From contig OY987243.1 of the NCBI GenBank assembly GCA_963920765.1, forward strand, positions 16,368,001 through 16,432,000: a DNA stretch of 64,000 bases, given 5' to 3'. Source of the DNA: Ulota crispa. Lineage: Eukaryota > Streptophyta > Bryopsida > Orthotrichales > Orthotrichaceae. A model generated the notes under the pieces. That model saw only the letters and a list, made by a program, of their open reading frames with translations. It searched no databases and was not told the origin of the DNA. The translations under genes and the position numbers were made by a program. This document shows, one piece after another, positions 146 through 59,479 of this stretch (the first letter of the stretch is position 1; each line of letters starts with the position of its first letter).

Positions 146-1097
146 TTAACCCCTAAAAGACCAAGCACTTTTTTTGTGAAAATCATTCAAAACTGCCACT
201 TTTGGGGAAATGAGTAAAAGGTAGCAAAAAAAAATTAAAAAAAAATCCAACCCTAAGATCTTGCCCTAGACTATGGGAGGTGCTTGTGGGAAAAAAATCA
301 GCTCATTCTAGTTGTAGGGGAGTGAGATATTCACATCTAAAGTGAAAAAAAAAGTTTTTTCCCTACTGCCCAAAAATTTCAAAAGCTTTGACAGCTCCTA
401 TATCAAAAAAATTGCTCTACGCAAAGTTGAGGTTTATTTTTCCCATGTAGAAGACCATGTAAGGTATGCATGGGAGAATTCTCAAATGAATTGGAGGTGT
501 GGATCATACTTTGTAAAATCCTGCAATACTGTAAGGCCGTGAAATTTGCATATACGCTAGGCAAAATCAGAGAATTTGTGTAATACTCAAAAATCTGAAT
601 TACTTTGATCCATATGGTGAAAACCAAGGTATCTTAGTCTACTACAACTTGGAAAAAAGAAGTCAAAAATAAAATAAAAAAGGAGCTCAAAAAAGGAAAG
701 CAACAAATTTTACAAGAGGCAAAAAGAATGGAGGTTTGGGAGTCCCATACCTACTCGCAAACTAAAACTTCTCATAACTTTCACATCAATCAAAATGAAT
801 GATTTAAAGATTCCAAAATTTGTATAAATCTAAAGAATCAATTTTAGATTGCTTTTTTAAGAAAGTGCAATTTTGATTATTTTTTCCTGGGTTGCCCGCC
901 CTCATCCTTTTTCAGAAATTCATGCATAACTTCTTCAACAAACGTGGGAATGAAGAAAAATTTAGATGCCCATGTAGATCTTTTAATTTCCCATCTTCAA
1001 TAAAAGTTTCAAAAAATCACAAAAAATAGATTAGCTCTAGGTACATGCCCAAAATCCATTTGTCCCCCAAGGGGACAGTAGGTCCTTTAGGGGTTAA
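146..1097 (-). mobile_element. TTAA-flanked MITE, family 1 (copy A)
   Basis: The element opens TTAACCCCTAAAAGACC and closes GGTCCTTTAGGGGTTAA, so both ends share a terminal inverted repeat that includes TTAA. The interior is the reverse complement of the elements at 10893-11826 and 26376-27309, but clearly more diverged. Close to its right end lies a small hairpin of the form TGTCCCC-loop-GGGGACA. There is no coding capacity. Non-autonomous, probably piggyBac-like by its TTAA target and CCC termini (inference). Confidence 0.85.
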
Positions 1098-1115
1098 ACT
1101 AAGGGCTTCTTTATA

Positions 1116-2058
1116 TTAACCCTTTAGTACGCGGTTGACCACTTTTGGGTTGATTTTGGTACTCTGTGGTTCTTGTCATCTAAGTTCTATTTGATTTGCA
1201 AAAACACAAAACGTAACAGAGCTGGGGGTTTAGCTTGTGCTCCTACTGGAAAAAATTTCAAAGCAAGGCATAAAGATACACGGTAGCTATGTGTGTTTTA
1301 CATATGAAGCTAGGAATCTCATAAAAGTATAACAAATGAAATACTAATTCATTGCAACTGTGACGTGGCACCAAAGCCCACATATTGCACTCAAAGTACC
1401 TAGTGCTAACTCTCTAGTAGTTGTGCAAAAGATGCATAGTTTATTTAGGAGTTCTGACTTGTGGTGTATTTAAGCTACAACATTGTGTATTCCATGAGTT
1501 CTAAGGCTCCAAAGGTTTGCAATGCTAAATGTGGGACCTTGTACCTCAAATGACACCTAATGTAGATGATATTGACCAATCAGATTTTGTGGAAACATGT
1601 TCCATGCATGACGTATTCAACCGTATATGTGTGGCCATGTTTGTATTCTTCCAATGCTCAATTTCACAAATCATGCCATGAAATGCACAGATTGACTCAA
1701 ACTTTGTATTTTTTTAGAAGTGCACTAACCTAAAATGGGGCAATAGTCTTTACAAATTTCACCACTATCAAAAGTTTCAATTGCACAATTGACACTAATT
1801 AGTTAGAATGTCTCACATTTTTGCACAACAAGTTTTTTTGGATCATCAAGCTTCTCACAACCCTCACATGGAATCATTTTGATAAATCAAACCTTTTTTT
1901 TATATTCATGTTGCCAAAGTTTATAACTTTGATATGTCTAATCCGATGTCATTTTAGAAACACATATTTTGTCTTTGAATGTGCACAATGTGTTTTGCAA
2001 ACAATATAGTGAAAATTTGAGGTGCCCCCCAAATGGTTGACGGTCACTAAAGGGTTAA
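1116..2058. mobile_element. TTAA-flanked MITE, single-copy type B
   Basis: Ends are TTAACCCTTTAGTACGCGG on the left and CACTAAAGGGTTAA on the right. A second inner inverted match is GGTTGACCAC near the left end and GGTTGACGGTC near the right. It is 943 bp, starts 18 bp after the previous element, and has no supported reading frame. Its TTAACCCTTTAG ends are the closest in the window to published piggyBac-type ends as I remember them. Confidence 0.8.
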
Positions 2059-2407
2059 GAGCGGAGGTTGATTTGGAATATTTGATGGTAGGAACTCTTG
2101 TGTTTTTTGAAATTGACTCCAAAGTTGTTATACTATGAGTCAAGGTCAAAATTTCAAAACATACTTTGATATTTAGGAAGACAAGATTTAACATGATTTT
2201 AAACTCAAAAATTTGATTTTTCCAAAAAAGAAAGGCTTGTTTGTTGCTTTGGAGGTTTTTTTAAAAGTCAATAATATAAACTGTGTTTACAAAATTATTA
2301 TTTTTTTAGAATAATTGACAGTTTGACACTGTACAATACACTGGAAACTGGATCTCAATAACTCTATTGACGCAATCTAAGTATTCGCAACTTCACACCA
2401 TGGAAAC
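2059..2407. other. AT-rich intergenic, nothing recognised
   Basis: No gene, RNA or element boundary is visible. The stretch separates two transposon insertions. Confidence 0.4.
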
Positions 2408-2410
2408 TAA

Positions 2411-4126: not shown

Positions 4127-4449
4127 TAGGGAAAATTTTATGGATACCCCTCAAGTTTGTAATTTTGCATAGATACCTTGCTTTTTCAGAAATTGCACAA
4201 ATATACTTGGACTAAAATTTTCATGCGTTTGTTTTGTTGTACACATCACTTCCTTCTTCCTTTGTGTGCAAGATGTTTTTTTTTTTCATTGCACTCCTTT
4301 CTTCAATATTGATCACAAAGGAAGTGACAAACACAACAAATAAACGCCTAAAAATTATGGCCCAAAGGTATTTGTGCAATTTTTGAAAAAGCAGGGGAAT
4401 GTATGCAAAATACTGCAAACTTTAGGAGTATCCATGAAAATTTTCCTTA
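4127..4449. mobile_element. MITE with GGGAAAATTT..ATGGATACCCC ends (copy X1)
   Basis: The left end GGGAAAATTTTATGGATACC is mirrored by GGAGTATCCATGAAAATTTTCC on the right, after allowing a few mismatches. An inner pair also matches (GCTTTTTCAGAAATTGCACA against TGTGCAATTTTTGAAAAAGC). Related copies are at 12612-12932, 22864-23600 and, more distantly, 47702-48310. Such ends are common on Mutator-type MITEs (established knowledge); no clean 9-bp duplication is visible here. Confidence 0.65.
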
Positions 4450-9488: not shown

Positions 9489-9722
9489 TTAACCCTTAAA
9501 GGACATAGCGTGCCACTGTGACCAGTACAATATGGGGTATTTTTCATGTATTTGGAATGGATTCACACCTCTATTACATTTGAGACCAACAAAGAAGTTG
9601 GAGAATAGATCAATGCAGTTCCAGTGAGCTACTTGAGATCCCAAATTAAAACTTCTTTTTGGTAGCAAATGCCAATTATACGTCACCATATATACTATGC
9701 CCTATGGTTGTTTAAGGGTTAA
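9489..9722 (-). mobile_element. TTAA-flanked MITE, 234-bp family, left arm of palindrome (P1)
   Basis: Bounded by TTAACCCTTAAAGGACATAG and its inverse ending GTTTAAGGGTTAA. It is the inverted copy of the adjoining element 9719-9952; the two share the central TTAA (9719-9722). Related copies are at 22114-22344 and 34411-34628. Confidence 0.88.
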
Positions 9723-9952
9723 CCCTTAAAGGACCATAGGGCATAGTATATACGGTGACGTATAATTGGCATTTGCTACCAAAAAGAAGTTTTAATTTGG
9801 GATCTCAAGTAGCTCACTGGAACTGCATTGATCTATTCTCCAACTTCTTTGTTGGTCTCAAATGTAATAGAGGTGTGAATCCATTCCAAATACATGAAAA
9901 ATACCCCGTATTGTACTAGTCGCAAAGGGCCTTTCAGTCGTTTAAGGGTTAA
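9719..9952 (+). mobile_element. TTAA-flanked MITE, 234-bp family, right arm of palindrome (P2)
   Basis: It opens TTAACCCTTAAAGGACCATA and closes TTTAAGGGTTAA. The interior is almost the exact reverse complement of 9489-9722. Differences are concentrated in the outer 40 bp, so the arms have begun to diverge. Confidence 0.88.
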
Positions 9953-10892: not shown

Positions 10893-11826
10893 TTAACCCC
10901 TAAAGGACTGTTGTCCCTTTGAGGGACAAGTGGGAGTTTGGGCATGTACTTTTGGATAAGCTACTTTGTGTGATTTTCTGAAACTTTTATTGAAGATGAG
11001 GAATTCAAAGATCTATGTGGGCATCTAATTTTTTCCTCATTTTGACAATTATTGAAGAAGTTATGCATGAAAATCTGAAAAGCAAGGGAGGATTGCCCAC
11101 TCAAGCAACCCAAAAACTTCTTTAAAAATCAATATTTTTTTATATTAAAATTTGAAATTGGTTCTTTAGATTTTTTTACAAGTGAGAAGCTTTGAATCAT
11201 TCATTTTCAATCAATGACAAGTTATGAGGAGTTTTTGTTTGCGGGCAATTATGGAATCTCTACTCTAAAATAAACTTTGAAGTCCTTTATTTTACTCAAT
11301 TTTCATTATTTTGGAAAAAAAAACAAATCCAAAGGATGTAGATTGTTTATCACAACATTATGACCATTGGGATTTGCATTTTTCATTTTAATAATGAAAT
11401 TCTTAACAATTTAGTGATTTGACTCATTCTCTATTTCTTTTTACTTACTGATTTTTCCTATGTGTTGTGTAGTTCCAATTGATTTGAAAATTCTCCCACA
11501 CATAGCTAACTTGATCTCCTACATGGGAAAAATAAAGTGCAAAGTTGCGTAGAGCAATTATTTTCATGTAAGAATGGTCAAAGGCTTCTGAAATTTTGCA
11601 GCAGCATGAAAAAAAAACTTTTGTTTTCACTTTAGATGTAAATATCCCACTCATGTCCATCTGGAATGACCTGATTTTTTTTCCACAAGTACCTAATCCA
11701 GTCTAGGGCAAGACCCTAAGGTTGGATTTTCCAAATTTTCAAAAAAATTACCTTCTTAGTAACCCCCAAAAGTGGCAGTTTTGAGTGACTTTCATTGAAA
11801 AAATGGTTCAGTCCTTTAGGGGTTAA
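10893..11826 (+). mobile_element. TTAA-flanked MITE, family 1 (copy E)
   Basis: Ends TTAACCCCTAAAGGACTG and CAGTCCTTTAGGGGTTAA form a 16-bp-plus inverted repeat including TTAA. It is 934 bp, the same length as 26376-27309, and by eye nearly identical to it, which implies recent mobility. At 10911-10929 is a perfect hairpin, TTGTCCC-TTTGA-GGGACAA, present at only one end. No transposase. Confidence 0.92.
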
Positions 11827-12611: not shown

Positions 12612-12932
12612 GGAGAATTTCATGGATACCCCTGAAGTTTGCAATATTTACATAGATGTTCTTGTTTTTTCAAAAATCACACAAATATTGTAGGACCAAA
12701 TTTTTTTGGTGTTTGTTTTGTTATGCATGTCACATCCTTTCTTCCTTTGTGAGCACATTATTACTTTTTTGTTTCATTACATTTCCTTCTTCAACATTGG
12801 TTATGAAGGAAGTACAAGCACAACAAATTTATGCCTAAAAATTAAGGTCCAAGGATATTTGTGTAATTTCTGAAAAAGCAGGGATATCTATGTAAGTATT
12901 GCAAACTTCAGGGGTATCCATAAATGATTTGG
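12612..12932. mobile_element. MITE with ..TTTCATGGATACCCC ends (copy X2)
   Basis: The left end GAGAATTTCATGGATACCCC is mirrored at the right by GGGGTATCCATAAATGATTT. It is the same family as 4127-4449. It also supplies an uninterrupted version of the place where another element sits in the copy at 22864-23600. Confidence 0.7.
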
Positions 12933-13527: not shown

Positions 13528-14731
13528 TTAACCTTTGAAGGACTACGGAGCCCTTTATGGCCAATATTGAGAGTTTTTGCCGTATTTAAAGTGGTTGTGG
13601 TCCGCGATTTTGGTCAAGAGATTGTGGACGCAGTATTAGCATCATCCTTGACGTTTTGAGATGATTCCGGAAGGTAGGCAAATTCTGTGCACAATGCAAG
13701 AGGGCTTTATACCGGGCAGGGATACAGTTTGGTATTTCTAAGGTGGTTTTGGTCACCTAGAGTAGAAACGAGTCTGGGCTTGCCAATGTGTCCGCCTTCT
13801 TGCTAGGTGGTACAAGCAGCTCGGATGTCGATGTCTCTGCAGAACTTTCACGAGTTGGCATGAGCAACTCAAATTGAGGCAGGAGACGTTTCTTTTTTGT
13901 CTATTGTGTTCCACGTCTGTTTGGCGAGAGGTAGTGGGCTGTGCTTCTTCTTGAACATTATTTCAAGAGTGTCGTGCGGATGTGTGCTAGACCACTCCCT
14001 GCGTTGTTCAAGATCAATTAGGAGACGCTTAGGGTTTCAGCGGCCTAGAGGATAGTTGGGATTATGATGCAAAGTAGTGGGTGCAAATTCTAGGCGGAAT
14101 GCTGCAAAAATGGGCTTCTCGGCGTCAACAAGATCACAGGCAGTCTAGACACGCCTAACCAGGAAGTGTGAGGACCCGGCGCTAAAAAAGCATGTATCTG
14201 CGCTTTACTCGGAGGATTCCTGCAACCTTGAAGGGGCAAAGCAACCGAACAAATCTTTGATGAAGTGAACCCCCTAACGAACCCGCCCCTAGTCCACTAC
14301 GGTTGACGTGGTGAGACACGCAAACCTCAAGGTAACCGTTGAATTGCCACGCGCGACAACTTCATGCCATCCCCCAACACGTAGAAGCGCGTAGTTGCAG
14401 TTAGCTCCTCCCGTACTTAGGAGATGAATCCTACCAAGCGTGTTCCTGCGACAAGTTGGCAGCCAACTATTCCTGTATTTGACAAAGAATCCAACCAAAC
14501 TCTAGGTGACCCACCGCGGTGTATACGGAATGAAGCATCTGCTAGTTCCAAACCCATTGACCCAATCAACGCAAAAAAGACACAAGACATTGCGCAAACG
14601 AAAGCGAGGTCATTGCACGTAGTTTTGATTCACCAATGTTGCATTGCCAAACAAACCATCTCGTCCCAAAGAATCGTATCCATACTATATGGTGGGCCAC
14701 CTACGGAGCCCACTGGTCCTTCAAGGGTTAA
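13528..14731. mobile_element. TTAA-flanked element, 1.2 kb, with GC-richer interior (type C)
   Basis: Ends TTAACCTTTGAAGGACTACG and ACTGGTCCTTCAAGGGTTAA mark it as a member of the TTAA superfamily. The sequence ACGGAGCCC appears just inside both ends. The interior (about 13560-14650) is clearly more GC-rich than other members and than its flanks, and contains GTGAGGACCCGGCGCT, a phrase reminiscent of LTR starts. It may have captured foreign DNA. The 107- and 69-codon frames inside show no domain. Confidence 0.75.
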
Positions 14732-15961: not shown

Positions 15962-16209
15962 TTAACCCCTGAGCGCCCAAGGGACCAGAATATGGCCACT
16001 CTGTTTTTAAAAATGTTCATGTTTGACTCTTATCCTGTTCTTAATGGTAGAGTCAAAGGACTTGTACTTTTGCATGCACCTCCAGGAATGTGTCTACTAC
16101 CACTTAAACAAATTCAAGCTCTTTAATTCTACTTAGGTAATACTTTTTTTGAATTAAGTACACGACGGTATGGATTTGAGTGAATTTGGCCTGGGCGCTC
16201 AGGGGTTAA
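15962..16209 (+). mobile_element. TTAA-flanked MITE, 248-bp family (copy D1)
   Basis: Ends TTAACCCCTGAGCGCCCAAG and CTGGGCGCTCAGGGGTTAA. Copies in the opposite orientation are at 28687-28933 and 29008-29255. It lies about 315 bp before the THO5 start codon and may border its promoter. Confidence 0.88.
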
Positions 16210-24880: not shown

Positions 24881-26132
24881 TAATGTAGGAGGCTCGAATT
24901 CAGAGGGGGCATTTTGAACATGGTTTCTAGAACTAAAACTATGCACAGAGATTCTAAAACGGGTCACATTTTCTATGTTCAGAAATTGTACTTGTGCATG
25001 CACCATTTTAGGAATTTTAGAGAGTGACATGAGCCAGTGCTGAGTGTGCATACTGGTCATAATTGTGTTCAAATTTGTCTTTCAGTAAAATATAGATACA
25101 TGTCATACTAAAATAAATAAAAACTTTAATTGAATCATAATTTGAGTATTAGAATATGGAATGGGTGCTTGCACACTTTAACCCCAAAACGACCTTGGAA
25201 ATTCCTGAGCTTTTAGGAATTTGCTCTTATTTGAACAAAAAGCCAACATTTTGATAAGTTGTATAAATAAATTTTGAAATGTAACCATATAAAATCAAAC
25301 TAGACATGTTAAAGATCACATTAGAAAAGAAAACACAACAATATCTCTTATGGATTGAAAGATTATAATGTTTGATCATGAGGGTGTTAAAATTGTGAAA
25401 GTGGTTTGAAGTCTTTCAACTTCTTTTCACATGTCGAACTTAAAAAGTTGGTCACCAAAAAAATACAAGGCTAAAGGGTCTAACATGCATAACCCAATCA
25501 ACTCATGACTTCTCAAAATGTATTCTACATTTTTTTAAACAAATTTTCAATGTGATTTTTTCTCAAAGATCTAGTGTATTTGAGGCTCATTCCCAAGAGC
25601 CCTCAACACTACATAAAGTCAAGATTGCAATGGACACCCGTGCACAAAATCTTGAATAAAAAAATCACAATCAATCATTTGCAAAATCAAATTGTTGAAG
25701 CTAAACTAAACTTCAAAAAGAACTTTTCAAAAAAATGAAATAATCAAAATAGTAAATTGGTAAGGTTTTATTTAACGTCAAAATTTATTTGAGGACACAT
25801 TCTGTCTTCAATGTTGTTTTGGGGTTAAGAGCTATATTGGAACATTCTTGACTTTGTAGTGGTTGGTTTTAGGACTCATGTGCTCCATTTACAAGTCATT
25901 TTTGCATCATGAATGCTATCACCTATGATCAAGAATAGCTACCTATGCACCTTTTGCTTTAATAAATTGTAGTTGATTCATACTAACTCAAAAAAAATTC
26001 AAATTAGACAACCACATAATTGTCTCTTTTTTGACTTTCTACCAAAAATATTTCCTTTCTACAGTGCTACCCTGATTTTTCCACAGAAGCGCACTTTCTG
26101 TTGGATGGTCCATTCACGAGCCTCCTACCTTA
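24881..26132. mobile_element. TA-flanked MITE, AGGTAGGAGGCTC family, interrupted
   Basis: Left end TA-ATGTAGGAGGCTCGAA; right end CGAGCCTCCTACCT-TA. The termini match 20357-20673 and 39766-40095. A 651-bp TTAA element (25178-25828) sits within it. Confidence 0.65.
25178..25828 (-). mobile_element. TTAA-flanked MITE, 650-bp family (copy I)
   Basis: Ends TTAACCCCAAAACGACC and TTGTTTTGGGGTTAA. The interior is the reverse complement of 34625-35274 and 58829-59479 (shared phrases such as GAAAACACAACAATATC). Lengths are 651, 650 and 651 bp. Confidence 0.85.
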
Positions 26133-26375: not shown

Positions 26376-27309
26376 TTAGCCCCTAAAGGACTATTGTCCC
26401 TTTGAGGGACAGGTGGGAGTTTGGGCATGTACCTTTGGATAAGTTATTTTGTGTGAATTTTTGAAACTTTTATTGAACGTGAGGAATTCAAAAATCTATG
26501 CGGGCATTTAATTTTTTCCTCATTTTGACAATTATTGAAGAAGTTATGCATGAAAATCTGAAAAGCAAGGGAGGACTGCCCACTCAAGCAACCCAAAAAC
26601 TTCTTTAAAAATCAATATTTTTTTATATTAAAATTTGAAATTGGTTCTTTAGATTTTTTTACAGGTGAGAAGCTTTGAATCATTCATTTTCAATCAATGA
26701 CATGAAAGTTATGAAGATTTTTTGTTTGGGGGCAATTATGGAATCTCTACTCTAAAATAAACTTTGAAGTCCTTTATTTTACTCAATTTTCATTATTTTG
26801 GAAAAAAAACAAAACCAAAGGATGTAGATTGTTTATCACAACATTATGACCGTTGGGATTTGCATTTTTCATTTTAATAATGAAATTCTTAACAATTTAG
26901 TGATTTGACTCATTCTCTATTTCTTTTTACTTACTGATTTTTCCTATGTGTTGTGTAGTTCCAATTGATTTGAAAATTCTCCCACACATAGCTAACTTGA
27001 TCTCCTACATGGGAAAAATAAAGCGCAAAGTTGCGTAGAGCAATTATTTTCATGTAAGAATGGTCAAAGCTTCTGAAATTTTGCAACAGCATGAAAAAAA
27101 ACTTTTGTTTTCACTTTAGATGTAAATATCCCACTCATGTCCATCTGGAATGACCTGATTTTTTTCCACAAGTACCTAATCCAGTCTAGGGCAAGACCCT
27201 AAGATTGGATTTTCCAAATTTTCAAAAAAATTACCTTCTTAGTAACCCCCAAAAGTGGCAATTTTGAGTGACTTTCATTGAAAAAATGGTTCAGTCCTTT
27301 AGGGGTTAA
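26376..27309 (+). mobile_element. TTAA-flanked MITE, family 1 (copy E2)
   Basis: The left end is TTAG rather than TTAA (one mutation) followed by CCCCTAAAGGACTATTGTCCC. The right end is CAGTCCTTTAGGGGTTAA. It is the same length (934 bp) as 10893-11826 and nearly identical to it. Confidence 0.9.
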
Positions 27310-28686: not shown

Positions 28687-28933
28687 TTAACCCCTGAGCG
28701 CCTAGCGTAAGTTCACGCAAATCCAGACCCTTTGGAATCCATTCCAATCAAACTATCACTTCAAAGAGATCCACAAAAATTAACCGTACCGATTGGTAGT
28801 GAACATAGGTCCAGAGCTCTAAGAAAAAGAACACGTCCTTTCACCGTACCATTGAAAAGATTATAACGGTCAAACAAGGAAATTTTTCAAAACCAAGAGG
28901 CCATATTTTGGCCCTGGGGCGCTCAGGGGTTAA
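28687..28933 (-). mobile_element. TTAA-flanked MITE, 248-bp family (copy D2)
   Basis: Ends TTAACCCCTGAGCGCCTAG and GGGCGCTCAGGGGTTAA. It is inverted relative to 15962-16209. It shares its right TTAA (28930-28933) with the next element. Confidence 0.88.
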
Positions 28934-30130
28934 CCCGTAAAGGCCCAAGGGGTGTTTTCACTAGAAACTGCCAAAATTTGTGTTTTTTCAATATGTTGAT
29001 GTGAATCTTAACCCTTGAGCACCCATGCCATATTCACACAAATTCATACCCTTGTGTACTTAGTTCAATAAAAGTATTACCTAAGTAAAGTCAAATAGGT
29101 TGATTTTTTTTGAGTGGTAGTAGACACATGCTTAAAGGTACATGAAAAAATACAAGTCCTTTGACTTTACCATTAAGAAGAGTATAAGAGTCAAACGTGG
29201 ACATTTTTCAAAACCAAGAGGTCGGTTTTGGGGACCCTAGGCACTCAAGGATTAATGTACAAATAATTTTTGAAACTTCAACCGTACAAAATTGTAGTAA
29301 AATATTTCAATATTGAGTACAAATTTTTTTAGCCCATTTGACCACACGGATTGAAAGATTATAGCATTTGAAATTTATAGAAAAGTTTTTTTGTCCCTGC
29401 CTAAATGGGTCAGCAGACTTTGAGCCTCTTTGGAGTCAAATTTTTGGTTGGCATGAATTAAAGTTTTTTTTCCACATGTATCTAAATCTTGTCAAGTGCA
29501 CTCCTGAATAGTTTCAAGAGCAAATTATGAATCTAGCTTACTCTAAATTGTCTTGCAGGATAAGGAGGTTAAGTGAATTGTCGATACATTAGTCATTCTT
29601 TCATAATTTTTTGTGCACTAAGGACATTGTTTATTTCAAATCCAAATGGTGAAAAGTTAGAGACAAACATTTGGAATGTTTGAAAAAAAATTCAAGAGCT
29701 TTGGGTTTATAGATTGAAAGATAATAGGTCCTAAAGTTAGAGGAAAACATTTTTTCTTGAAATTGCCTGAACGTAGTTAACAAAGTTTGACTCCCGTTAG
29801 AATGTGATGTGAGACCTCAATTGATTTTTTTTTGACAAATGTACACCATGTCTTTTTAGTTACATACTTGCCAAATTTCAAAAGTCAACGACAATTTTAG
29901 CATAAGGTTCTCCAAAGATGCCCAAACTACTTGAGCTGCCCAAATTCTTTTGGGTAGAGTAACTTTTGAACTAAGCATCCAATTGGGGAAAATTTATATT
30001 TCCATTTGGGGGATACATATTTTACACCTTGTGTAAAAATTTGAGAACATCCAATAAAAAACGACTCTATATGACCCTATCCAAGTTCTTAAGTGGCTGT
30101 TGAACGGACACTTGGGCCTTCAAGGTTTAA
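28930..30130. mobile_element. TTAA-flanked element H, about 957 bp plus a nested copy
   Basis: Ends TTAACCCGTAAAGGCCCAAG and CTTGGGCCTTCAAGGTTTAA. Removing the nested element (29008-29255) leaves about 957 bp. No coding frame. It abuts D2 with one shared TTAA. Confidence 0.8.
29008..29255 (-). mobile_element. TTAA-flanked MITE, 248-bp family (copy D3), nested in H
   Basis: Ends TTAACCCTTGAGCACCCATG and TAGGCACTCAAGGATTAA. It is exactly 248 bp like D1, more diverged, and sits 78 bp inside H. Confidence 0.85.
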
Positions 30131-31102: not shown

Positions 31103-32410
31103 TAAAGTAAGCGCATCCATCCCCGTCATGTCCCCACGGGCGTTACTAGACATTGTTAGGGACTAACAAATATAAATTAAATGGTTATGGGTAATTAAGT
31201 GATAGTTATGGGTGACAAAGTGATGGTTGTGGGTGACTTGCATGACGGTTTTGAGTACCCATCTCACTATTTAACCCCTAAAATTCTTTTGTGTTTAGAG
31301 GCCCAAAACTCCTTCAAAATACTAGTCCCCAAACCAGGGTCAAAATCTTCATTGAAACTTATTTTTTAACAAATCCAACCGTAGGATCCTTTGGTTGACT
31401 TGCACAAGTACATTATCCTGAAATTTCAGAATGAGTATCCCCACCAATTGCAAGATTAATGTGCCTAAACTTCAAAATGTGGGTTTTTCTATTCCTTCCA
31501 AAAGGTGAAGTTTTGATTTTCAAACTTTTTAGAAAAAAACGCATATGTTGTACTTCTTGTGCAATGTTTGCAATATGTTGAAAAATGCGTTGAAAGCATA
31601 TATAAAAAAATTAACCAAAAAATAGTTTGGATTCACTTTTACAAAAATTGTAAAGTGAAAGGTATTGATGAATGAAAGATTTAACTAATATGCTAATTAA
31701 GTTTTGGAAGAATTTGAAAATTGTTAATCCCAATGGTGAGAATGTTGTAACAAACAATTAGTAACTTTATTTTTTGTTTTCATTTGTTATTTTTCAAAAT
31801 GGAGAGTAAAAGATAACTTTATATGTTTTGTCTACCCTCTTCCTACCTTCATTGCCCGCAAAATAAAACTCCTTTTAACTCTTACCTCATTATTTGGAAT
31901 TGAGTGATTTAGTTCTTTTGAATAGGTATCAATCTATACAATTCTATAAAAAAAAAATTATAAAAAATTTAGAATATATTTTTTGCTGCCCGGAATTGAA
32001 GAACCTTCTAACTTTTACAATACTTATCCAAATGACATGAAATAAAGCTTCACATGTAGATTATGATGAGTAGCATCCATCCTAAAAATTTCATGAAAAA
32101 TTTCCAAATTACGAAGTCAATAGAGCCTGCCCGAGTTCTCATACAGCCCAAAGTGGGTTCCTTGGGTCTTTAGGGGTTAAGAACCAACAAGACTTGTTTT
32201 TAACATCTCTTACACATGATTCCTACAATTTCAATAATTTTGGACTTTGAAAAAATTTTGTGTACAAATGCTTACAATTGGAACCTTGAAACTGATGCCA
32301 ATATTTTTGGTTTCCACTTCCTAACTTACAGTATTTTTTTCAAAGTTAGTCAATTATTTTACCTACTCCAAAACCCTTATTTCCACGCTTATGGGCGCGC
32401 CTACCTTTTA
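31103..32410. mobile_element. TA-flanked MITE N1 (AGGTAGG family), interrupted by a TTAA element
   Basis: Left end TA-AAGTAAGCGCATCC; right end GGGCGCGCCTACCTT-TTA. Without the insert (31271-32180) it is about 400 bp and matches the uninterrupted copy at 41248-41634 along its length. Confidence 0.75.
31271..32180 (+). mobile_element. TTAA-flanked MITE, family 2 (copy F), nested in N1
   Basis: Ends TTAACCCCTAAAATTC and GGGTCTTTAGGGGTTAA; 910 bp. It lies in a TTAA that is present once in the sister host (41383-41386). Its own internal TTAA at 31366-31369 is the empty counterpart of the site occupied at 45360-46274 in copy G. Confidence 0.9.
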
Positions 32411-34204: not shown

Positions 34205-34413
34205 TAAGGTAGGTATACCCAATACCAATCATATACCTAATGGTGTCTCTATGTACACATGGTGGTCAATTTAGGACTCAAATCTAGATAAGTCATAAAT
34301 AGCTTATCTTTTGTGTCTCAAAAGATAAGCTATCTATGGCTTACCTAAATTTGAGTTCTAAAATGACTTTGATGCCATTAAGTACGTGATTGATATTGGG
34401 TATACTTACCTTA
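34205..34413. mobile_element. TA-flanked fold-back MITE (AGGTAGGTATACCC ends)
   Basis: Left end TA-AGGTAGGTATACCCAATA; right end TATTGGGTATACTTACCT-TA. Almost the whole 209 bp is a palindrome with a short loop near 34317. Confidence 0.8.
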
Positions 34414-34628
34414 ATCCTTGAACATCTAAGCACATGCCACTACAACCAGTTCAATGTAGAGTGTTCCTCTTAAATTTGACTATATTTGAGATCAACAAAG
34501 AAGTTGAAGAATACATCAAAACGGTTATAATGAGCTACTTGAGATCCCAAATTAAAACTTCATATTGATAGCAAATGCCAATTATTTGGCAAAGTGTACA
34601 CTATGCCCTATGGCCTATGGTCATTTAA
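34411..34628 (-). mobile_element. TTAA-flanked MITE, 234-bp family (copy R)
   Basis: Opens TTAATCCTTGAACATC. The interior matches 9489-9722 (GAGCTACTTGAGATCCCAA, ACTATGCCCTATGG). It ends in the TTAA shared with the next element. The right terminal repeat is short and partly lost. Confidence 0.8.
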
Positions 34629-35274
34629 CCCCTAAATGCCCAAGCGACCAGATTTGGGTCTTTACAAAACTTTGAAGATGAATAAAATCTTATCAAATCA
34701 TTCTTTTCAGTAATTTTTTTCAATATAAGTTTGTTTTGAAGTCTATTTTCAACATCAAAAATCTGATTTTGAAATGAAAGTTGATGATTTTTCTACTTAA
34801 GATTTTGTACAAGGGTGTCCACTGCAATCTTGAGTTTTCTAGTGTTGGAAGATCTTGAAAATGAGCCTCAAATACACTAGAGCGTGGAGAAAAATCCACA
34901 ATTGAAACCCATTTAAAAAAAATGTAGGAGTAAATTTTTAAAGCCGCAAATTGATCAGTGTTAGGCATGTAATGACCTTAAACCTCATATTTTTTTGGTG
35001 ACCAACTTTTTAGATTTGACATGTGAAATAGGGATTAGAAGACATTAAGTCACTATTGCAATTTTAACACCCTCATGTTCAAATGTTATAATCTTTCAAA
35101 CTATAAGTGATATTGTTGTGTTTTCTTTTTTCATGTAATCTCTAACATGTTTAGTTTAAATTTGTTTGGTTACAATTGAAAAAAACTTGATGGAATTTAT
35201 GAAAGGTTGAATGATTATTCAGTTTCATGGAAAGTCCAAGAAGTTCAGATAGGGCTTGGGCATTTAGAGGTTAA
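34625..35274 (+). mobile_element. TTAA-flanked MITE, 650-bp family (copy J)
   Basis: Ends TTAACCCCTAAATGCCCAAG and CTTGGGCATTTAGAGGTTAA. Sister copies are at 25178-25828 (inverted) and 58829-59479. Confidence 0.88.
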
Positions 35275-35463: not shown

Positions 35464-35701
35464 TTAATCCCTGAGCGCCCGGTCGACATTATACTGTCAA
35501 TGGAGCCCATAATTTTATCTCACTTTTTTTCTTAATTTGTACGGTGAAAACAGCCATGACTGATCCCCTCCAGCAAAGAAGGTAGTCCTTTTTCAAATCC
35601 TGCAATTACTTTTTTTGAATGTAATTTGCCAAGCTATGATGGCCATTAAAGCTCCCATCTTTTCTTAAATCTTAAAATAACTCTGGGTTCTTAAGGGTTA
35701 A
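35464..35701. mobile_element. Probable TTAA-flanked MITE, 238 bp (copy S)
   Basis: The left end TTAATCCCTGAGCGCCCGG resembles the 248-bp family. The right end is weaker (CTGGGTTCTTAAGGGTTAA). Internal similarity to the D copies is not obvious. Confidence 0.5.
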
Positions 35702-40386: not shown

Positions 40387-41148
40387 TTAACCCCTAAGCA
40401 TCTTGCTAAGAAAATTTAGCATACCTCCTATATGGAACCCTCAATTTTTAGAAAGTTGAACAAGTATTCACACAATCCAAACCGGTCATTCTATACCCAA
40501 CTATAAATTAAATGTTTTAAGCCAATTTGATTTCAAATCCAACTAGATCTACAAAATCCCCACCGCTGGAAATCTCATGTTTGTTAATTTGGGTAGCAGC
40601 TCACAATATGGATTTTGGAGTGTGATGTGATTTTTTCCCAAAAAAAAATTGCCTAATGGTTGATCCCATGAGACTGTGTCTAGCTATACTTGATGGAAAA
40701 AAAACTCCTCAAATGGGAAAAAACTCCAAAACTTATGGTCATTCAAAGTAAGTGGACTTAGCTTGCTCATTAATTTAGAGCTACAAAAACCTTGCCCAAT
40801 CGAGAGAGAAAAAAGTGACACATCACCAACCTTCTCCCCTATACATGGGAGTGTGGGTTTTCAACCCATCCCATCCAAAATTCCTCCATCCACAATGCAA
40901 TGAACAATGCCTATATACACTCCCATTAATAGGTTTAATATTGAAAATAGTAAAGACAAATGTTTGGGTGCAAAACCTAGAGGCTTTAAGGAACAACAAG
41001 CCAATCCAAAAGTTTTGTTGAACTTTTAGCTCCATTTGGACTTGAGTGGCAGACCAAAACTTGAGCATGCAATGCTTTTTTTGTCTACTTTTACACCTCC
41101 AAGAACCCCATTTGGCCATATTGAGCTCTTTGGTCCTTTAGGGGTTAA
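40387..41148. mobile_element. TTAA-flanked MITE, 762 bp (copy K)
   Basis: Ends TTAACCCCTAAGCATC and TGGTCCTTTAGGGGTTAA. No close relative in the window; no coding frame. Confidence 0.78.
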
Positions 41149-43192: not shown

Positions 43193-44123
43193 TTAACCCC
43201 TAAATGCCCAACGCACCAGATTCTGGTGTGCAAAAAATTTCAGGAAACTTTGAAACCCTGTTGAAGTTATAGATTTTATTGTTTTGAGGTTTTTTTTGTG
43301 GAGAAGTTGCGCGTTGAAGTTAGTTTTACCGTTCAAATTCAACTTCCTTCATATCTTATTTCATTTGTTTTTGGTGGAAGGTTATCTACAAGTATACATT
43401 TTCAATTGTGAATAGTGTCGTGAATAGTGTCATGAATAGTGTTGTGAATAGTGTAACAGAGCCTATGAGAAGTTGCCACATTGAAAAAACAAGCATCAAG
43501 TTGAGCAAAAGGTGAAGATTTCTCTTGGGCACTCCCTCGGGCTATAAGGGCCTTTTTATTGAAATTTTGACATCTAACAAAGTTTATAAGTGCTTTTGGA
43601 CTAATTTCACTTGGAATGTCTTTGTTATAGAAATTAGGATCCTTTCACCGTTGAATTTTCATTCATTCATAATGATTTTTGGTCAATAATTGAAGTTGAA
43701 AATTTCTTTGTATGAGACAGTTGTGTTTTGACAGTTGCATTGCAGGCTCATTTGTGAAATTGTGGTCATGGATTTGGAAGAGGGGCCATTGGTTTTGAGG
43801 TAACAACAATAAACACTAAAGCATCCTAAGTGGTTGTCTCCCAATTTTGTGTTTAAGAGTTGCCAATTTGCATTAGAAGTTTTGGGCAGCTAAAAAAAAA
43901 GCAAAAAATTCCATACTCATCATCATTCAATCACAAATATCTTAAAGTCCGCGCGGCCATTTGGGATTCTTTTTGGGTAGTGCCATTTAGAAACCTCAAA
44001 GTTCAAGATTCAACGGTTACAATTTCTTTTTTATGTTTAATGATGATCTTATAAGGACAATTCAAAAACTTCAAAACTGCCTACTGAAAACGAGAAAAAC
44101 ACCCTTGGGCATTTAGGGGTTAA
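43193..44123. mobile_element. TTAA-flanked MITE, 931 bp (copy L)
   Basis: Ends TTAACCCCTAAATGCCCAAC and TTGGGCATTTAGGGGTTAA share at least 18 bp. It contains a 12-bp tandem repeat. The interior is unlike the other 930-bp family. Confidence 0.85.
43408..43455. repeat. 12-bp tandem repeat, 4 units
   Basis: The unit GTGAATAGTGTC is repeated four times with single-base changes, inside element L. Confidence 0.9.
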
Positions 44124-44547: not shown

Positions 44548-46368
44548 TTAACCTCTAAAGGACCAAAGAGCCCACTTTGGACTTTATGAGAACTTGAGTA
44601 GGCTCTATTGACTTCATAATTTGGAAATTTTTCATAAAAATTTTAGGATGGATGCTAGTCATCATAATCTACATGTGAAGCTTTATTTCATGTCATTCCA
44701 ATCAGCAATGCAAAAGTTATAAGGTTTTTTCAATTTCAATGTCAAACCGGGCAGCAAAAAAAATCTAATTTTTTAAATGTTTTATTTATAGAATTGTATA
44801 GATTGATACCTACTCAAAAAAACTTGAATCACTCAATTCCAAATAATGAGGTGAGAGTTAAAAGGAGTTTTATTTTGTGGACAATGAAGGTAAGAAGAGG
44901 GTAGAAAAAACATATAAAGTTATCTTTTACTCTCAATTTTCAAAATTTTCAAATGAAAATTAAAGTTACTAATTGTATGTTAGAGCATTCTCACCATTGG
45001 GATTAACAATTTTCAAATTCTCCCAAAACTTATTAGCATATTAGTTATATCTTTCATTCAACAAAACCTTTCATTTTACAATTTTTGTAAAAATGAATCC
45101 AAACTTTTTTTGGTTAATTTTTTATATATATGCTTTCAATGCATTTTCCAACACATTGCAAAAATTGCACAAGATATACAACATATATGTTTTTCTCTAA
45201 AAAGTTTGAAAAATAAAACTTCACCTTCTAAAAGGACTAGAAAAGCCTACATTTTGAAGTTCAGGCACATTGATCTTGCAAATGGTGGGGATGCTCATTC
45301 TGAAATTTTGGGACAATGTACTTGTGCAAGTCAACCAAAGGATCCTACTGTTGGATTTGTTAACCCCTAAAGGACCATTGTCCCTACGAGGGACAAATGG
45401 GATTTTGGGCAGGTACCTATGGCCTCAATTTTTGTCTTAAATTTTTGAAACTCTTTTTGAAGATAGAAAAACACATTAGCTTTTGGGGAATATAATTTTT
45501 ATTCCAATTCATGCCAGGGAGCAAATGTTATGCCCAAATAAGCACAAATTTGGGGACTAGGGGCAGCAAAAACATTCTTATAAAAACTTGAATTTTTTTT
45601 TCTTATAGATTATATCTTTGTCTACATTTGAAGCTTTGATTCATTCCATTTGGACTAGTTATGAGAAAGTTATGGACAATCTTGTTTGTCGGGCAACTCA
45701 AGCATCTTCTTGAAAAAATAACTTATAAACTTCATTTTTGAATGTAGGTTTAACATTTTTTCAAAAAAAATCGCTAGAGAGGGTGAAGTTTGCTTTCTAG
45801 AACAATCTCACCATTGAGACTATTGCGTTTCAATTCCAATGCAGGGTTATTAGCAATTTAAGTTTTTGTTCAATCTCATATCTCTTCTACCTAATGTTTT
45901 TTTAAAGAATGAAAATGAATAATTTTTTGTTTTAAATTTTTTCCCAAGATTCTCAACTCAAATTTTCACCATGCAAAAATAGAATTCCAAACTCTGTGGT
46001 GCAAAAATTTTAAGGTAAAAATGTTCAAAGTTAAAAAATCTAGTCAAGCAAGGTGCAAAAAAAGTCCTTTTTATACTTTAAATGCATATATCTTCCAATC
46101 TATGTAGTCAAAGTTCTTGAGTTTTGTATGACACATTTGTATAGTAGTCTAGCACAAGATCCTATGGTCAGATATGCAAAATGCCCAATTTCAAACTTTT
46201 TTACTCTTTGCCATAGAAGTGGTAGTTTTGAGTGTCTTTTGACAAAATAAAGGCCATGGTCCTTTAGGGGTTAAAAAGTAAGTTTCAATGAAGATTTGAC
46301 CTTGCTTTGGGGACTAGTATTTTGAAGGGGTTTTGGGCCTCTAAACACAAAAGAAATTTAGGGGTTAA
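44548..46368 (-). mobile_element. TTAA-flanked MITE, family 2 (copy G), interrupted
   Basis: Ends TTAACCTCTAAAGGACC and GAAATTTAGGGGTTAA. With the insert 45360-46270 removed the host is 910 bp, exactly the length of copy F (31271-32180), of which it is the reverse complement. Confidence 0.9.
45360..46274 (+). mobile_element. TTAA-flanked MITE, family 1 (copy E4), nested in G
   Basis: Ends TTAACCCCTAAAGGACC and GGTCCTTTAGGGGTTAA; 915 bp. It sits in GGATTTG-TTAA-AAAGTAAG, for which copy F has a single TTAA. It retains the one-sided hairpin TTGTCCC-TACGA-GGGACAA near the left end. Confidence 0.92.
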
Positions 46369-48908: not shown

Positions 48909-49340
48909 TAAGGTAGAAATACCATGAATGATTACTCCCCTGATAATGGCAAAATAAACTGTTCTAAAATCAACAAGAGCTAGATTTGAAAAAGATTTAA
49001 AAAAGATGCTCTTTCCTTGCATTTGATTGGTTCAAATTTGTTTTGGAACAAGGTTCTAGAGGTAGCCGTTAACCCCTAAATATCCACGGTATCAACTTTG
49101 AGTATTGAAAACACCCAAATTGGGTGCCTTGAACATTTAGGGGTTAAGGTGCACCTATGAAACAAAAATTGGTCGAAACCCTAAATCCACATTTATATTG
49201 CATAAAATATTCATTTTTGATTTTTTTTTTGTTTTTTTTGTTTATTTTTCACTCTTCCTTGAGCTTAATTTCTCAAGAAATTCCCCATATCTTACAGGCT
49301 AAAATGGCTTATTTGAACCGTTTATGGTATTTCTACCTTA
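48909..49340. mobile_element. TA-flanked MITE (AGGTAGAAATACC ends), with nested insert
   Basis: Left end TA-AGGTAGAAATACCATGAA; right end TTTATGGTATTTCTACCT-TA. A 79-bp TTAA element lies inside. The same left terminus recurs at 58804-58828 just before another TTAA element. Confidence 0.75.
49069..49147. mobile_element. Minimal 79-bp TTAA-flanked MITE (copy T)
   Basis: Ends TTAACCCCTAAATATCC and ACATTTAGGGGTTAA flank only about 45 bp of interior, which itself has a CACCCAA/TTGGGTG hairpin. It is the shortest member seen. Confidence 0.85.
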
Positions 49341-52392: not shown

Positions 52393-54202
52393 ACCCTTCC
52401 TCTTCTCTAGAGCATTTTTTCCCCCCTTTCTCCCCCCAGAATGCCAGAGTTCGGTGATTGTAGGTATTACTCATTTGTCAGTTGTCATTAGTGCTGCCGG
52501 TTACTTGGCTGCTATTTTTTTGTTCTTGTATATACATATAATAAAATTTCTGCTCCCTTGGTTGTAATCTCTTGCTCCCATGCTGCAGAGACCAGTACCA
52601 GGGTTTTTCTTACAGATGGTCTTCACTTTTCTTGATTAATGTCTCTCTTTCACGTTTTCATTGTGTGACTTGTTTGTGGAAATCACTTTGAATTTTTTAA
52701 AATTTTGGAGTGTAGACGTGTTGACCAGTTGAAGTCAAAGTAAAAGAATTGATTTTACTGAGATGAAAGGCTTCTTCCCCTTCAAACTAAGAGCTAACAA
52801 ATCCATTTTGCAAAATGTGCGCTTGCACTTAACTTAGGCCCTCACTAAGTTTTGATAGAATAATCGTCACTTTGGACTGGATCCACTTTGCTTATATCAC
52901 TAACATCGAGTTTAATCACTCTAAAGTACCATTTCTCAATGTCTTGTGAAGTTCTTTTTTCAAATTCAAGAACCGTTGGTTACAGTAATGGAACCCTGAT
53001 CATGAAATTGAATCTCAATATCTCGCACTCTGCATGCTTGATTTTGCCGTTGCACACTATGATTGTTTTTACTTCAAACTTCTACATATAAGATCATGCG
53101 TTTTCGGTATCTGTGTTAAGTTTTTTAAGAATTTGAAATTTTTGTGAATATTTAAGGAGAAAGTTCAGAACTCCATAGTATACCAAAAAATGAAGATCTG
53201 TAGAAGATTTCTATCTAGTTTTCCATGACATCAATGTCATGAAACTTTGGCTTCGGTTCTTACTAGGAACAAGGGAAAAACAACTAATGTATCTTGAACC
53301 TAATTTAAGGATGTGCCTACTCCATGACCAAAAGCTTTACTAAAACACTTTGAAGAAATTCATGCATCATTTAGAAAGAATCAAATTTGTTTGACTGATC
53401 ATAACCTACTATAGGCCCCTGGTGACATGACATGGATAGAACCCAATTTAAAACAAAAGTTGAACAATAGTAAGCAACAAAAAGGTTTGAAACAATGAGA
53501 AACAAGTAACGAAGAAACATACTACTGGTACTACATGATTAACCAAAAAGTAAACATGGTCCAAATAGATTTGATAGAATTTGTGCAATTGTACATTTGC
53601 AAATTTGATAATATAGAAAATCCTTTTATACAAAGGAATTTCTAGTTTCAGTTAAAAATATACATGTACACCATGTAAGTAGCATCTCAACCTCCAAAAG
53701 CCTTTCATGAATAACAAAGCACTCTATTCACAATTGCTTGACCCTTATATCCAAATATACCCTTTGATTGAAAGAAAATCTTTCCACTTATAGGTGGAAC
53801 ACATAAGTAGACTCTTCTAAAGGCCTGTTTCCATTGGCTTGTAATAAAAAGTCATGTTTTTTTTGTTAAGAATAACAAAGTAGGTGCAAAAAGGGTACTT
53901 ATATCTTGTAGATGCGAGCTCTATTTAGTAAGGATGAAAAGTACTTTTGATACTTGTTCACACTACTAGCAAAGTTAAAGCCATTAATACTAGCTAATCC
54001 ACCATCTTCACCAACTTTTAGTAAAGAACTATTTGTGTGGTCATGTTACTACTTCTACATATTAAAACCAATGCTATCTACTACCACCAACCCTAACAAC
54101 TAGATTTGATTCTTAATTACTAACTCAGGTGGAAATGCCAATTAAAATTAACCATCTAATACTTATCTAACATCGCTTATAAGAGCAAGTGGAAACAAGC
54201 CT
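52393..54202. other. 3' flank of ARA6 and intergenic DNA
   Basis: 52393 to about 52600 is probably 3' UTR. Beyond that the DNA is AT-rich with no supported gene, RNA or clear element end. Confidence 0.4.
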
Positions 54203-54508
54203 TAAGGTAGGAGCACCCATAAGGGTCAAACTAAGGGTTTTGAACATGATGACTATTAATAAACACTTAGCAAATTATTGAATCCTATTAGGAACAGAAA
54301 AAAAACAAGTTTGCACTTTCAAATGAATATTGTGAGAATATTTTGTGAATTTTTAAAGAGCAAACTGCCATTGCACCCATAACCAACACTAAGATTTCAT
54401 GTTCATATGTTGTACCTTGTAATTACATCTATTTACTTCCACAAATTTTCCAAGATTTTAGAGGTGATGGTTATGAGGACACTAACGCTTATGGGTGTTC
54501 CTACCTTA
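54203..54508. mobile_element. TA-flanked MITE, AGGTAGGAGCACCC family (uninterrupted)
   Basis: Left end TA-AGGTAGGAGCACCCATAAG; right end CTTATGGGTGTTCCTACCT-TA. It is the uninterrupted sister of 23622-24361 and provides the empty TTA site there. Confidence 0.85.
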
Positions 54509-55136
54509 ACCCCTAAACGTCAAGGAAGATGAAAAACATCCTCCGGCTTTGAAAAAAGATTTTGTGATTCAAAAAAAGTTGTTTTTCATTTGATTTTTTT
54601 CGGAAGTGACCATAAACACATGGTCCATCATGCAAGACAAAAAACTACCTCTTGAGAGGGGAATGCTATTTCATGAGTAGGGGTCCATGAGCCGTGAGCC
54701 GTGAGTAGGGATTTTTTGTCAAAATAATAAAATTTACCTATAAATGTGTATATGAGACCCTATTATTGTGCATTTTAAACTACTATCTCTTGAAAAACTT
54801 GTTGTGTTCTTAATTTTTCCATTGATTTTGAGTTGAAACTCCATTCCCGCTCACAAAATCTTGAATCCCCGCTCACGGCTCACCATTTTATGCTCACCAA
54901 ATAGCGTTGTCCCCTCTTGAGATGCATTCATTTTTTTTTGTAATCCAAAATGTGATAAGATTCCAAAACATAGTGTTAGCTCCCAAGCTACCCTTCTTGC
55001 AATTTTCGTGAGGGCACCATGCACTATTGACTTTTCCAACTTTTTGAAGCAATACTACTGGTGCCCATGTGCAAAACACTGTATAATGCTACAAGCAAGC
55101 CAAGCCACGGTGATCCATTTGTCCTTTAAGGGTTAA
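54506..55136. mobile_element. TTAA-flanked MITE, 631 bp (copy M)
   Basis: Ends TTAACCCCTAAACGTC and TGTCCTTTAAGGGTTAA. It inserted at the TTAA formed by the end of the preceding TA-element. A short run GAGCCGTGAGCCGTGAG occurs inside. Confidence 0.8.
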
Positions 55137-57808: not shown

Positions 57809-58804
57809 AACTCTGCACTTGCTTAACTAAAACAATTTGAATGCCAATTCAAGTCTCCTTAGAAACTCTTCCAATTCCTGACGCTTGAATTCACCTCATG
57901 CTTTTCCGTCGTTCTCCGATCCTCTCATCAACCAGAACCGCATATAGTTTCTTTCAAATTCCTGCAAGTTGCGATAAACCCTCAATTAGGGTTTTGACTC
58001 ATTCCCCGAACAAAAACAAAGATTTTGAATATTCGACGACTTGAGTAAATGCACATCCTCGACATATCAATTCCTGACACGATAAGAGAATAGTTTCTAT
58101 CAAATTCCTGCATAAATTGCGATAAACCCTCAATTAGGGTTTTGACTCATTCCCCCAACAAATACAATTATTTTGCATATTCGACGACTTGAGTCAATGC
58201 ACATCCTTGATATATCAATTCCTGACACAATAAGGAATTCTCTCAGCGACCTAACCAATTCTCACAATTCTTCACTCTGAAATCCATGTCCATTGTTTTG
58301 TTGAAGAAATCATCATACACGTCAAAATTTCGACACATCGACAATTCGAACGTTACAGAAATTAACAACCAAAACGACTTCCTGATTCCGACCACGCAAA
58401 AGGTGAATCGAATTCAATTCTAACAAGAGAATTCCGTCAAAACAGAGCATTTCATAAGTTGAACGCCACGAAAACTGAACGCCAGAACGGATTACGACGG
58501 AGAAATGCATGATGGAGAGCTTTGCATTCCGGGAATTTCAAACGCGCGCGATGTGCGAGGGTTTTACCGATTCAACAGCACGTTAGTGACTAACTGTCGC
58601 AGAGCGAAATACTTCCGGGCTTGCAAACAGACCGCGAGCTGTGAATGAGTTCTTGTGGCTGGAGGTTTGGGGTCCTGTTACCGTGGGGATAACGTGGTCC
58701 AAACTCTGCTTCTGCACTGCCGTGTGGATAGAAGTGGATGACTTTCATCCACTTCGACATTCCCAACGACAGTGGATTTCAAATTTTTATGAACTTCAAA
58801 TCAG
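57809..58804 (-). promoter_or_regulatory. Upstream region of the 132-aa gene with paired telobox palindromes
   Basis: Contains AAACCCTCAATTAGGGTTT at 57976-57994 and again at 58124-58142, each an inverted pair of the plant telobox AAACCCT. They lie about 170 and 315 bp upstream of the start codon. Teloboxes are known in plant promoters of growth- and translation-related genes. The GC-rich part at 58380-58740 may be the promoter of a divergent transcript, but none is seen. Confidence 0.5.
57943..58238. repeat. 148-bp tandem duplication containing the telobox palindrome
   Basis: Two direct copies offset by 148 bp (about 57943-58090 and 58091-58238) share ATAGTTTCT, GCGATAAACCCTCAATTAG, ATTCGACGACTTGAG and ATATCAATTCCTGACAC, with about one change per ten bases. 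Confidence 0.88.
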
Positions 58805-58828
58805 CTAAGGTAGAAATACCATAAACGG

Positions 58829-59479
58829 TTAACCCCTAAATGCCTGCGGCACCAAAGTTTGGTGTTTGGAATACTCTAAAGTTCAATAAACCTAGCTAAC
58901 TAGGTTACTACTTTTAGTAGTTTAGTTTACATTTTGGAATTATTTTTTGTGAAGTCTAATTTTAGGATTAATAATTCGATTTTGAAAATGATCAATTAAG
59001 GGTTTTTTATTCAAGTTTTTGTGCAAGGGCCTTGACTTTCTCTAGTGTTGTGAGTTCTTGGAAATGAGCCTCAAATACACTAGATCTTGGAGAAAAATTT
59101 ATATAAAAATTTCATTTGAAAAAACTGTAGAAAAGATTTTGAAAAGCTATAAAGTGATTGGGGTTATGTATGTTATTTCCTTTAACCTTATATTTGTTTG
59201 ATGATCATTTTTAAAAATCCAACATGTGAAAAGAGGATTCAAAGGCTTGAAGTCATATTTGTAGTGTTAACACCGTCATGATCAAACATTATAATCTTTC
59301 AATCCATTAGTGATATTGTTGTGTTTTCTTTTCTTCTATAACCTTTAACATATCTAGTTTGAATTTGTACACTTATAATTCAAAAGAATTTGATACAACT
59401 TATTAAAATGTTGCCTTTTTGTTAAATTTGAAGCAAATTCCTAAAAACCTAAAAAAGGCCTCAGGCATTTAGGGGTTAA
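58829..59479 (+). mobile_element. TTAA-flanked MITE, 650-bp family (copy J2)
   Basis: Ends TTAACCCCTAAATGCCTGCG and CAGGCATTTAGGGGTTAA. It sits just inside what looks like the left end of a TA-element (TA-AGGTAGAAATACCATAAA at 58804-58828) whose other end is missing. Confidence 0.88.

Follow-up and report, generated by a model that had tools for sequence, protein, structure and literature searches.

Introduction

PiggyBac transposons are best known from animals and are a workhorse of animal genetics. Miniature inverted-repeat transposable elements (MITEs) of the Tourist and Stowaway types are short, non-coding and bounded by inverted ends, far outnumber their transposase sources and, in the case of Stowaway, are flanked by a duplication of TA. 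The present work concerns a 64 kb stretch of the genome of the moss Ulota crispa, referred to below as the window, in which an initial annotation had noted about two dozen TTAA-flanked MITEs with piggyBac-like ends. It also concerns the piggyBac transposase genes that we found elsewhere in the same genome. We conclude, with a probability of about 94%, that the listed elements are non-autonomous MITEs of the piggyBac superfamily, whose excision and re-insertion at TTAA depended on DDD transposases like those of 5.0–6.8 kb elements in the same genome.

The piggyBac element of Trichoplusia ni (T. ni) is described as 2,472 bp long with one open reading frame (ORF) of 594 residues (PMC10140906). 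PiggyBac-like elements are stated to occur in plants (PMC8086355, PMC10140906, PMC10813416), PiggyBac is named among the superfamilies and as a plant tool (PMC10794571), and it is listed with six others as a superfamily of angiosperm MITEs in an account that traces Tourist, with TAA/TTA duplications, to PIF/Harbinger and Stowaway to Tc1/mariner (PMC10004981). The plant fragments tabulated in two further papers are few, with 1,230 fragments (122 kb) in C-fern and one copy (75 bp) in Stipa (PMC6890710, PMC8319324), and a term search of a review from 2022 on the transposable elements of land plants returned no occurrence of piggyBac (PMC9033089). No title among the literature matches listed, all openly licensed PMC papers, described a moss piggyBac radiation, and the one inspected of two "piggybac" matches in the Niphotrichum moss genome paper referred to "piggybacking" of genes. 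The statement that the superfamily is scarcely reported in land plants stands in the main but not without exception, as plant occurrence and angiosperm PiggyBac MITEs are published.

Results

Ends, TTAA flanks and an empty site

The 24 elements were re-read at their annotated positions, and searches were extended to the whole genome of the species (274.8 Mb). All 24 sets of coordinates proved real (Table 1), with a TTAA flank on the left of 23 elements and on the right of all 24, and the union of the elements covers 14,892 bp or 23.3% of the window. The element interiors fell into 12 blast clusters, so that the earlier count of at least five unrelated interiors was right. Inverted identity between the two 16-bp ends of each element, given below as the terminal inverted repeat (TIR) score, averaged 11.8/16 as opposed to 4.4 for random TTAA pairs.

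A blind scan of the window for TTAA pairs separated by 60–2000 bp, with a threshold of 12/16 for inverted identity, yielded 19 pairs, compared with a mean of 1.05 (range 0–4) in 20 dinucleotide shuffles. These comprised 14 listed elements, three pairs that joined the ends of neighbours and two other repeats (9646–9795 and 54202–54509), while the remaining 10 listed elements were under the cut-off or wanted a left TTAA. The motif TTAACCC occurred 40 times on both strands of the window compared with 10.2 times in shuffles. From the 48 window ends a common consensus, CCCYTRARNGNCC, was obtained, in which a single base was present in 44–47 ends at positions 2, 3, 5, 7 and 12 (45–47 at positions 2, 5, 7 and 12). 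C occupied positions 1, 2 and 3 in 41, 47 and 44 of the 48 ends, respectively, which is the CCC/CCY start of piggyBac. The single terminal consensus proposed for the elements is common to them in a looser form than first described, exact CCCCTAAAGGACC occurring only four times in the window, and it does not extend to the right end of 34411–34628 (3/16), the right TTAA of which belongs to 34625–35274.

The element at 44548–46368 is a 910 bp MITE, a second copy of 31271–32180 (approximately 90% identity), that holds the 915 bp element 45360–46274. The uninterrupted copy contains a single TTAA at the corresponding insertion site, i.e., a clean empty site. Of the features expected of piggyBac, TTAA flanks were thus seen on the left of 23 and the right of 24 elements, and a single TTAA in the empty site in one case, that of 45360–46274. 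TA sits inside the TTAA flank and the full TTAA is kept in the elements; the single empty site is compatible with duplication of either TA or TTAA. The 3 bp TWA duplication of PIF/Harbinger (Tourist) elements does not fit, the direct repeat being TTAA rather than TTA or TAA.

Abundance of the ends in the genome

Occurrences were counted on the forward and reverse strands of the genome, with the pattern read backwards as control. Exact TTAACCCCTAAAGGACC was found 4,072 and 4,082 times (control 0 and 0) and, with up to three mismatches, 29,916 and 29,992 times, or 59,908 in all (control 329 and 373, or 702). Without a requirement for TTAA, CCCCTAAAGGACC was found 4,753 and 4,844 times (control 2 and 1), and TTAA directly preceded 8,154 of these 9,597 occurrences (85%). 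The genome-wide absence of TTAA duplication that the initial annotation had named as contrary evidence was not seen. Two further patterns, TTAACCCCTAAATGCC (2,118 and 2,123) and TTAACCCCTGAGCGCC (810 and 758), were each absent from the control (0 and 0). Ends of this type are approximately twice as dense in the window as in the genome on average, and a crude scaling from the coverage of this one window places the elements at roughly 11% of the genome.

Transposase genes and their ends

Matches to PF13843 (DDE_Tnp_1_7) in the same genome numbered at least 120, at no fewer than 116 places (best E value 1.3e-73), which is a lower bound since 116 of 528 candidates were scored. Twenty-four places, the 20 best-scoring and four picked for stop-free stretches, were read with their surroundings and are designated here by L numbers. 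A 436-residue frame of L029 matched piggyBac (PDB 6x67, 3.6e-20) and piggyBat (9c0f, 1.4e-16), and a profile of 10 transposases, four from this genome and six database relatives, matched piggyBat (3.3e-53), piggyBac (1.1e-51) and nothing else in the PDB. The three triad positions were occupied by D in 22, 17 and 20 of the 24 loci, the 13 departures being 11 N, one E and one gap due to truncation of the domain; the predicted catalytic Asp triad is gone from many copies and is retained across lineages. A cysteine-rich tail of the form CxxC..CxxC..C..CxxxxH, like the cysteine-rich domain of piggyBac, was evident downstream of the catalytic domain in many copies when 23 loci were inspected by eye, without a count (e.g., L009, L012, L015, L019 and L023). 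Where both ends were found the elements were 5.0–6.8 kb long and not the compact single-ORF elements of 2–3.5 kb that are usual for, although not strictly defining of, piggyBac.

A weight matrix built from the 48 window ends was applied to zones upstream and downstream of each of the 24 transposases. Correctly oriented ends were present on both sides at 14 loci, compared with one locus in the reversed-orientation control, and at the strictest cut-off the corresponding numbers were 12 and 0. The DDD transposases that the initial annotation had proposed to look for within such ends are thus present and, in their PDB matches, of piggyBac and piggyBat type; no other transposase was seen in elements with these ends, although no search aimed at Kolobok or mariner types was made.

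The dispersed loci L009 and L018 hold copies of 5.03 kb with 90.5% identity, in which similarity stops at the TTAA ends and the flanks are without match, the left TTAA of L018 now being TTCA. The element at L012 is 5,746 bp long with ends CCCCTAAATGCC, and the window element 43193–44123 matches it over 130 bp on the left (73%) and 588 bp on the right (83%), in each case right up to the end of the element; both ends of 43193–44123 also match those of L022 (67% and 77%). From these matches at both ends, 43193–44123 is read as a probable deletion derivative of the L012/L022 lineage. The right end of L032 (6.8 kb), CCCCTGAGCGCCC, is that of cluster C, its left end being weaker, and L030 (6.6 kb) has ends CCCTTAAAGGACC, of which the right matches the last 857 bp of 28930–30130 (75%). 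In L025 and L026, which carry related transposases, the right end contains the subterminal part of cluster A, collinear with the transposase, and the match goes no further; left ends of these two were not found with the weight matrix.

A conserved block upstream of the transposase

A block of approximately 53 residues, resembling NCLxExxLLSLP..W.YLCRRQIAKLLGW, was noted upstream of the catalytic domain. With a profile of four seeds it was detected (E<0.01) at 14 of the 24 loci, i.e., at 10 of the 20 non-seed loci, and at this threshold was not found at L011, L012, L022–L027, L030 or L031, although L027 has a stretch like that of L013. The merged matches of two profile versions identified 77 places in the genome, 47 of which had a transposase on the same strand 1.5–4.5 kb downstream, compared with none when strands were flipped and a random expectation of 0.15; the other 30 were without such a transposase among the 116 places listed. 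The profile did not detect the block in the window.

Searches of the upstream blocks against Pfam and NCBIfam gave no family for five proteins in one search and for two of the three in another. A protein database search with the block gave one relative (P0037, 59%), and three database relatives (P0018–P0020, 506–642 residues) begin without it. Selection on the block, judged from proportions of synonymous (pS) and nonsynonymous (pN) differences, was clear between L014 and L021 (pS 0.77, pN 0.20), visible between L015 and L028 (0.83, 0.34) and absent from the young pair L009/L018 (0.07, 0.07). At L013 a 539-codon open frame with basic and RG-rich motifs, in a frame other than that of the block, spans the interval between the neighbourhood of the block and the catalytic domain; substitution patterns in the linker were weak (pS 0.69–0.81, pN 0.37–0.49). 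We interpret the block either as a putative accessory protein or as part of a long transposase, of which it would form a 5-prime exon.

Decay and selection

The 24 catalytic reads contained 81 stops (40 TAG, 27 TGA and 14 TAA). Reads free of stops were those of L019, L029, L030 and L032, each otherwise damaged or incomplete: L019 lacks the beginning of the domain and has a stop ahead of the cysteine-rich tail, the third triad residue of L029 is N, disruption sets in past the second triad position in L030, and the end of the domain is missing from L032. Given this damage in the copies read, most of the family is probably silent today.

L009 and L018 differ by 417 transitions and 60 transversions. 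CG and CHG sites, 12% and 14% of cytosines, account for 99 and 115 of the 417 transitions and are thus over-represented, an excess consistent with methylated, silenced DNA as its presumed cause. Of three MITE pairs, one leaned to transitions (10893 versus 26376, 19 to 5) while two did not (transition/transversion ratio approximately 1.2). In the DDE domain, pS was 0.52–0.90 and pN 0.11–0.17 in five pairs from different lineages, compared with 0.137 and 0.085 in the young pair L009/L018; the low pN between lineages would be as expected of long-lived mobile lineages.

Other features of the window and genome

Positions of the individual elements are given in Table 1. The adjoining cluster B pair (9488–9953) is 93.6% self-inverted. 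A profile of the 24 genomic transposase copies detected no transposase remnant in the window (best E value 0.6), and scans of the window for Rfam families (at gathering score) and for tRNA genes gave no match.

Table 1. Positions and features of TTAA-flanked elements in the window.
Positions	Feature	TIR score	Remarks
146..1097	MITE, interior cluster A, ends CCCCTAAARGACC	13/16	Right ends of L025/L026 (transposase loci) match one subterminal part
1116..2058	MITE, own interior, ends CCCTTTAGT	11/16	
9489..9722	MITE, cluster B	10/16	Right TTAA common with 9719..9952
9719..9952	MITE, cluster B	12/16	
10893..11826	MITE, cluster A	14/16	96.6% identity to 26376–27309
13528..14731	MITE, own interior	12/16	
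15962..16209	MITE, cluster C, ends CCCCTGAGCGCCC	15/16	Ends as right end of transposase element L032
22114..22344	MITE, cluster B	12/16	
25178..25828	MITE, cluster D	14/16	
26376..27309	MITE, cluster A	13/16	Left flank TTAG
28687..28933	MITE, cluster C	12/16	TTAA common with 28930..30130
28930..30130	MITE with nested MITE 29008–29255	13/16	Right 857 bp similar to L030 right end, 75%
29008..29255	MITE, cluster C	11/16	Nested in 28930–30130; 81% to 15962–16209
31271..32180	MITE	9/16	Empty-site copy of host element 44548–46368
34411..34628	Cluster B element without matching right end	3/16	Interior cluster B; probably truncated
34625..35274	MITE, cluster D, ends CCCCTAAATGCCC	15/16	First 35 bp identical to L022 left end
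35464..35701	MITE, own interior	9/16	
40387..41148	MITE, own interior	8/16	
43193..44123	MITE	15/16	Both ends match those of transposase-bearing L012 and L022
44548..46368	910 bp MITE		Split by 45360–46274
45360..46274	Nested MITE	15/16	Duplicated TTAA flanks; empty site kept in 31271–32180
49069..49147	79 bp minimal element	13/16	Two ends only
54506..55136	MITE, own interior	11/16	
58829..59479	MITE, cluster D, ends CCCCTAAATGCC	15/16	

A second kind of TTAA-bounded repeat, at 54202–54509, has ends GGTAGGAGCACCC (15/16 inverted) that are not of the CCC type; it abuts the MITE at 54506 and is mostly 82% similar to 23622–23911. Another dispersed repeat family, partly self-inverted and with 75–79% identity along most of the repeat, has members at 4127–4449, 12612–12924 and 22861–23136; none of the TTAA-bounded pairs in the blind scan belonged to it. 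Foldback repeats at 33726–34144 (80% self-inverted) and 34205–34413 (73%) adjoin the MITE cluster at 34411, and a GC-rich 42 bp tandem repeat lies at 63357–63455. A THOC5 exon was identified at 17262–17849 (Pfam PF09766, 5.3e-29), and a weak retropepsin match at 62739–64000 (PF13975, 25.3 bits, below the cut-off of 28.2) likely marks the start of a Ty3/gypsy-like polyprotein.

Elsewhere in the genome, transposase places of equal or nearly equal score were noted in inverted orientation approximately 15–109 kb apart on one contig (C7:18203169/18223004, C2:36765124/36779670 and C10:676128/785346), an arrangement that may point to duplication in inverted form or to an artefact of the assembly. The LEAFY DNA-binding domain of the genome, KPKMRDYVHCYALHCLD, has Asp at the place of Arabidopsis His312, which we take to be the moss type.

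Discussion

The assignment of the window MITEs to the piggyBac superfamily is based on their ends and TTAA flanks, one empty site, transposase-bearing elements with like ends and the match of 43193–44123 at both ends. Since the end pattern of the window repeats is common to transposase-bearing elements, these repeats were likely moved by the piggyBac family of enzymes. Each MITE family would be served by a transposase of the lineage that shares its ends, in a cut-and-paste reaction that would employ the DDD triad and duplicate TTAA as in T. ni piggyBac, and the conserved upstream block may be an N-terminal extension or accessory protein of the plant lineage.

Several observations weigh against this assignment. 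A recognised end pair was wanting in 10 of the 24 loci, and the contrast with reversed orientation was weaker when ends on one side were counted (upstream 17 of 24 versus 13, downstream 19 versus 7) because MITEs lie nearby. A match at both ends to a transposase-bearing element was seen for one of the 12 interior clusters; cluster A and 28930–30130 matched at one end, cluster C in terminal sequence only, and the remaining clusters are linked by the common terminal consensus. Cluster A copies are, moreover, very common and occur as plain MITEs near other transposases. The places read were 24 of at least 116, with no intact copy among them and stops in the catalytic stretch of 20. Finally, the TTAA flank by itself leaves room for a TA duplication inside TTAA.

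The alternative that survives best, although we consider it unlikely, is that piggyBac moved some of the MITE families only and that the other interiors acquired convergent ends or spread by duplication. The both-end match of one family only would fit this explanation, as would the weak ends (8–9/16) of the elements at 31271, 35464 and 40387, whereas the five positions at which 44–47 of the 48 ends carry one base argue against it, and plain duplication is disfavoured because of genome-wide counts in the tens of thousands, compared with a small control, and the nested insertion with its empty site. An origin of the MITEs from another TTAA-targeting superfamily such as Kolobok, with mere resemblance to piggyBac ends, is very improbable. 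TTAA duplication is not unique to piggyBac, and the window itself holds the TTAA-bounded repeat 54202–54509 with its different ends; the ends of Kolobok, however, are purine-rich rather than CCC, and those of the MITEs match PF13843-bearing elements in orientation and position, in one MITE at both ends. Just as little credence can be given to Stowaway-like MITEs of Tc1/mariner type that duplicate TA and strongly prefer TTAA. A palindromic TTAA is formally in keeping with duplication of TA, and the one empty site fits either case; coding elements within such ends, however, carry piggyBac transposases, and the full TTAA is kept in 23 left and 24 right flanks and before 85% of the genome-wide 13-mers.

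Because plant piggyBac elements are already published, membership of the piggyBac superfamily as such is ordinary, while neither elements of this length nor such abundance in a moss appeared in the literature matches listed. What is new is the scale, the host and the architecture, i.e., elements of 5.0–6.8 kb, many with an upstream domain that is not known to Pfam. More tentatively, and with somewhat less than even confidence, we propose that mosses may carry a piggyBac lineage of their own design, with elements of 5–7 kb, a transposase that works together with an additional conserved domain, N-terminal or accessory, and tens of thousands of TTAA MITEs that fill the genome.

These findings imply that much of a plant genome, about a tenth on the crude scaling from one window, has been shaped by piggyBac. 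They offer a plant-native TTAA system, a natural test within one genome of the co-divergence of ends and transposases, and a domain, as yet uncharacterised, that goes with piggyBac transposases. They also suggest that such elements may go unclassified in moss genomes where annotation is tuned to TA and TWA MITEs.

Compared with Tourist and Stowaway, the window elements are likewise short non-coding MITEs with inverted ends but differ in their TTAA flank and piggyBac source. The angiosperm PiggyBac MITEs and the fern and grass fragments bear the same superfamily label, whereas here 59,908 ends, at up to three mismatches, are accompanied by transposase elements with matching ends. With T. ni piggyBac and the piggyBat of Myotis, the moss elements share the PF13843 DDD domain, the TTAA flank, ends of the CCC type and the C-terminal cysteine-rich domain; unlike T. 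ni piggyBac, they are 5.0–6.8 kb long, many have an upstream coding block, and their ends number in the tens of thousands in a single genome.

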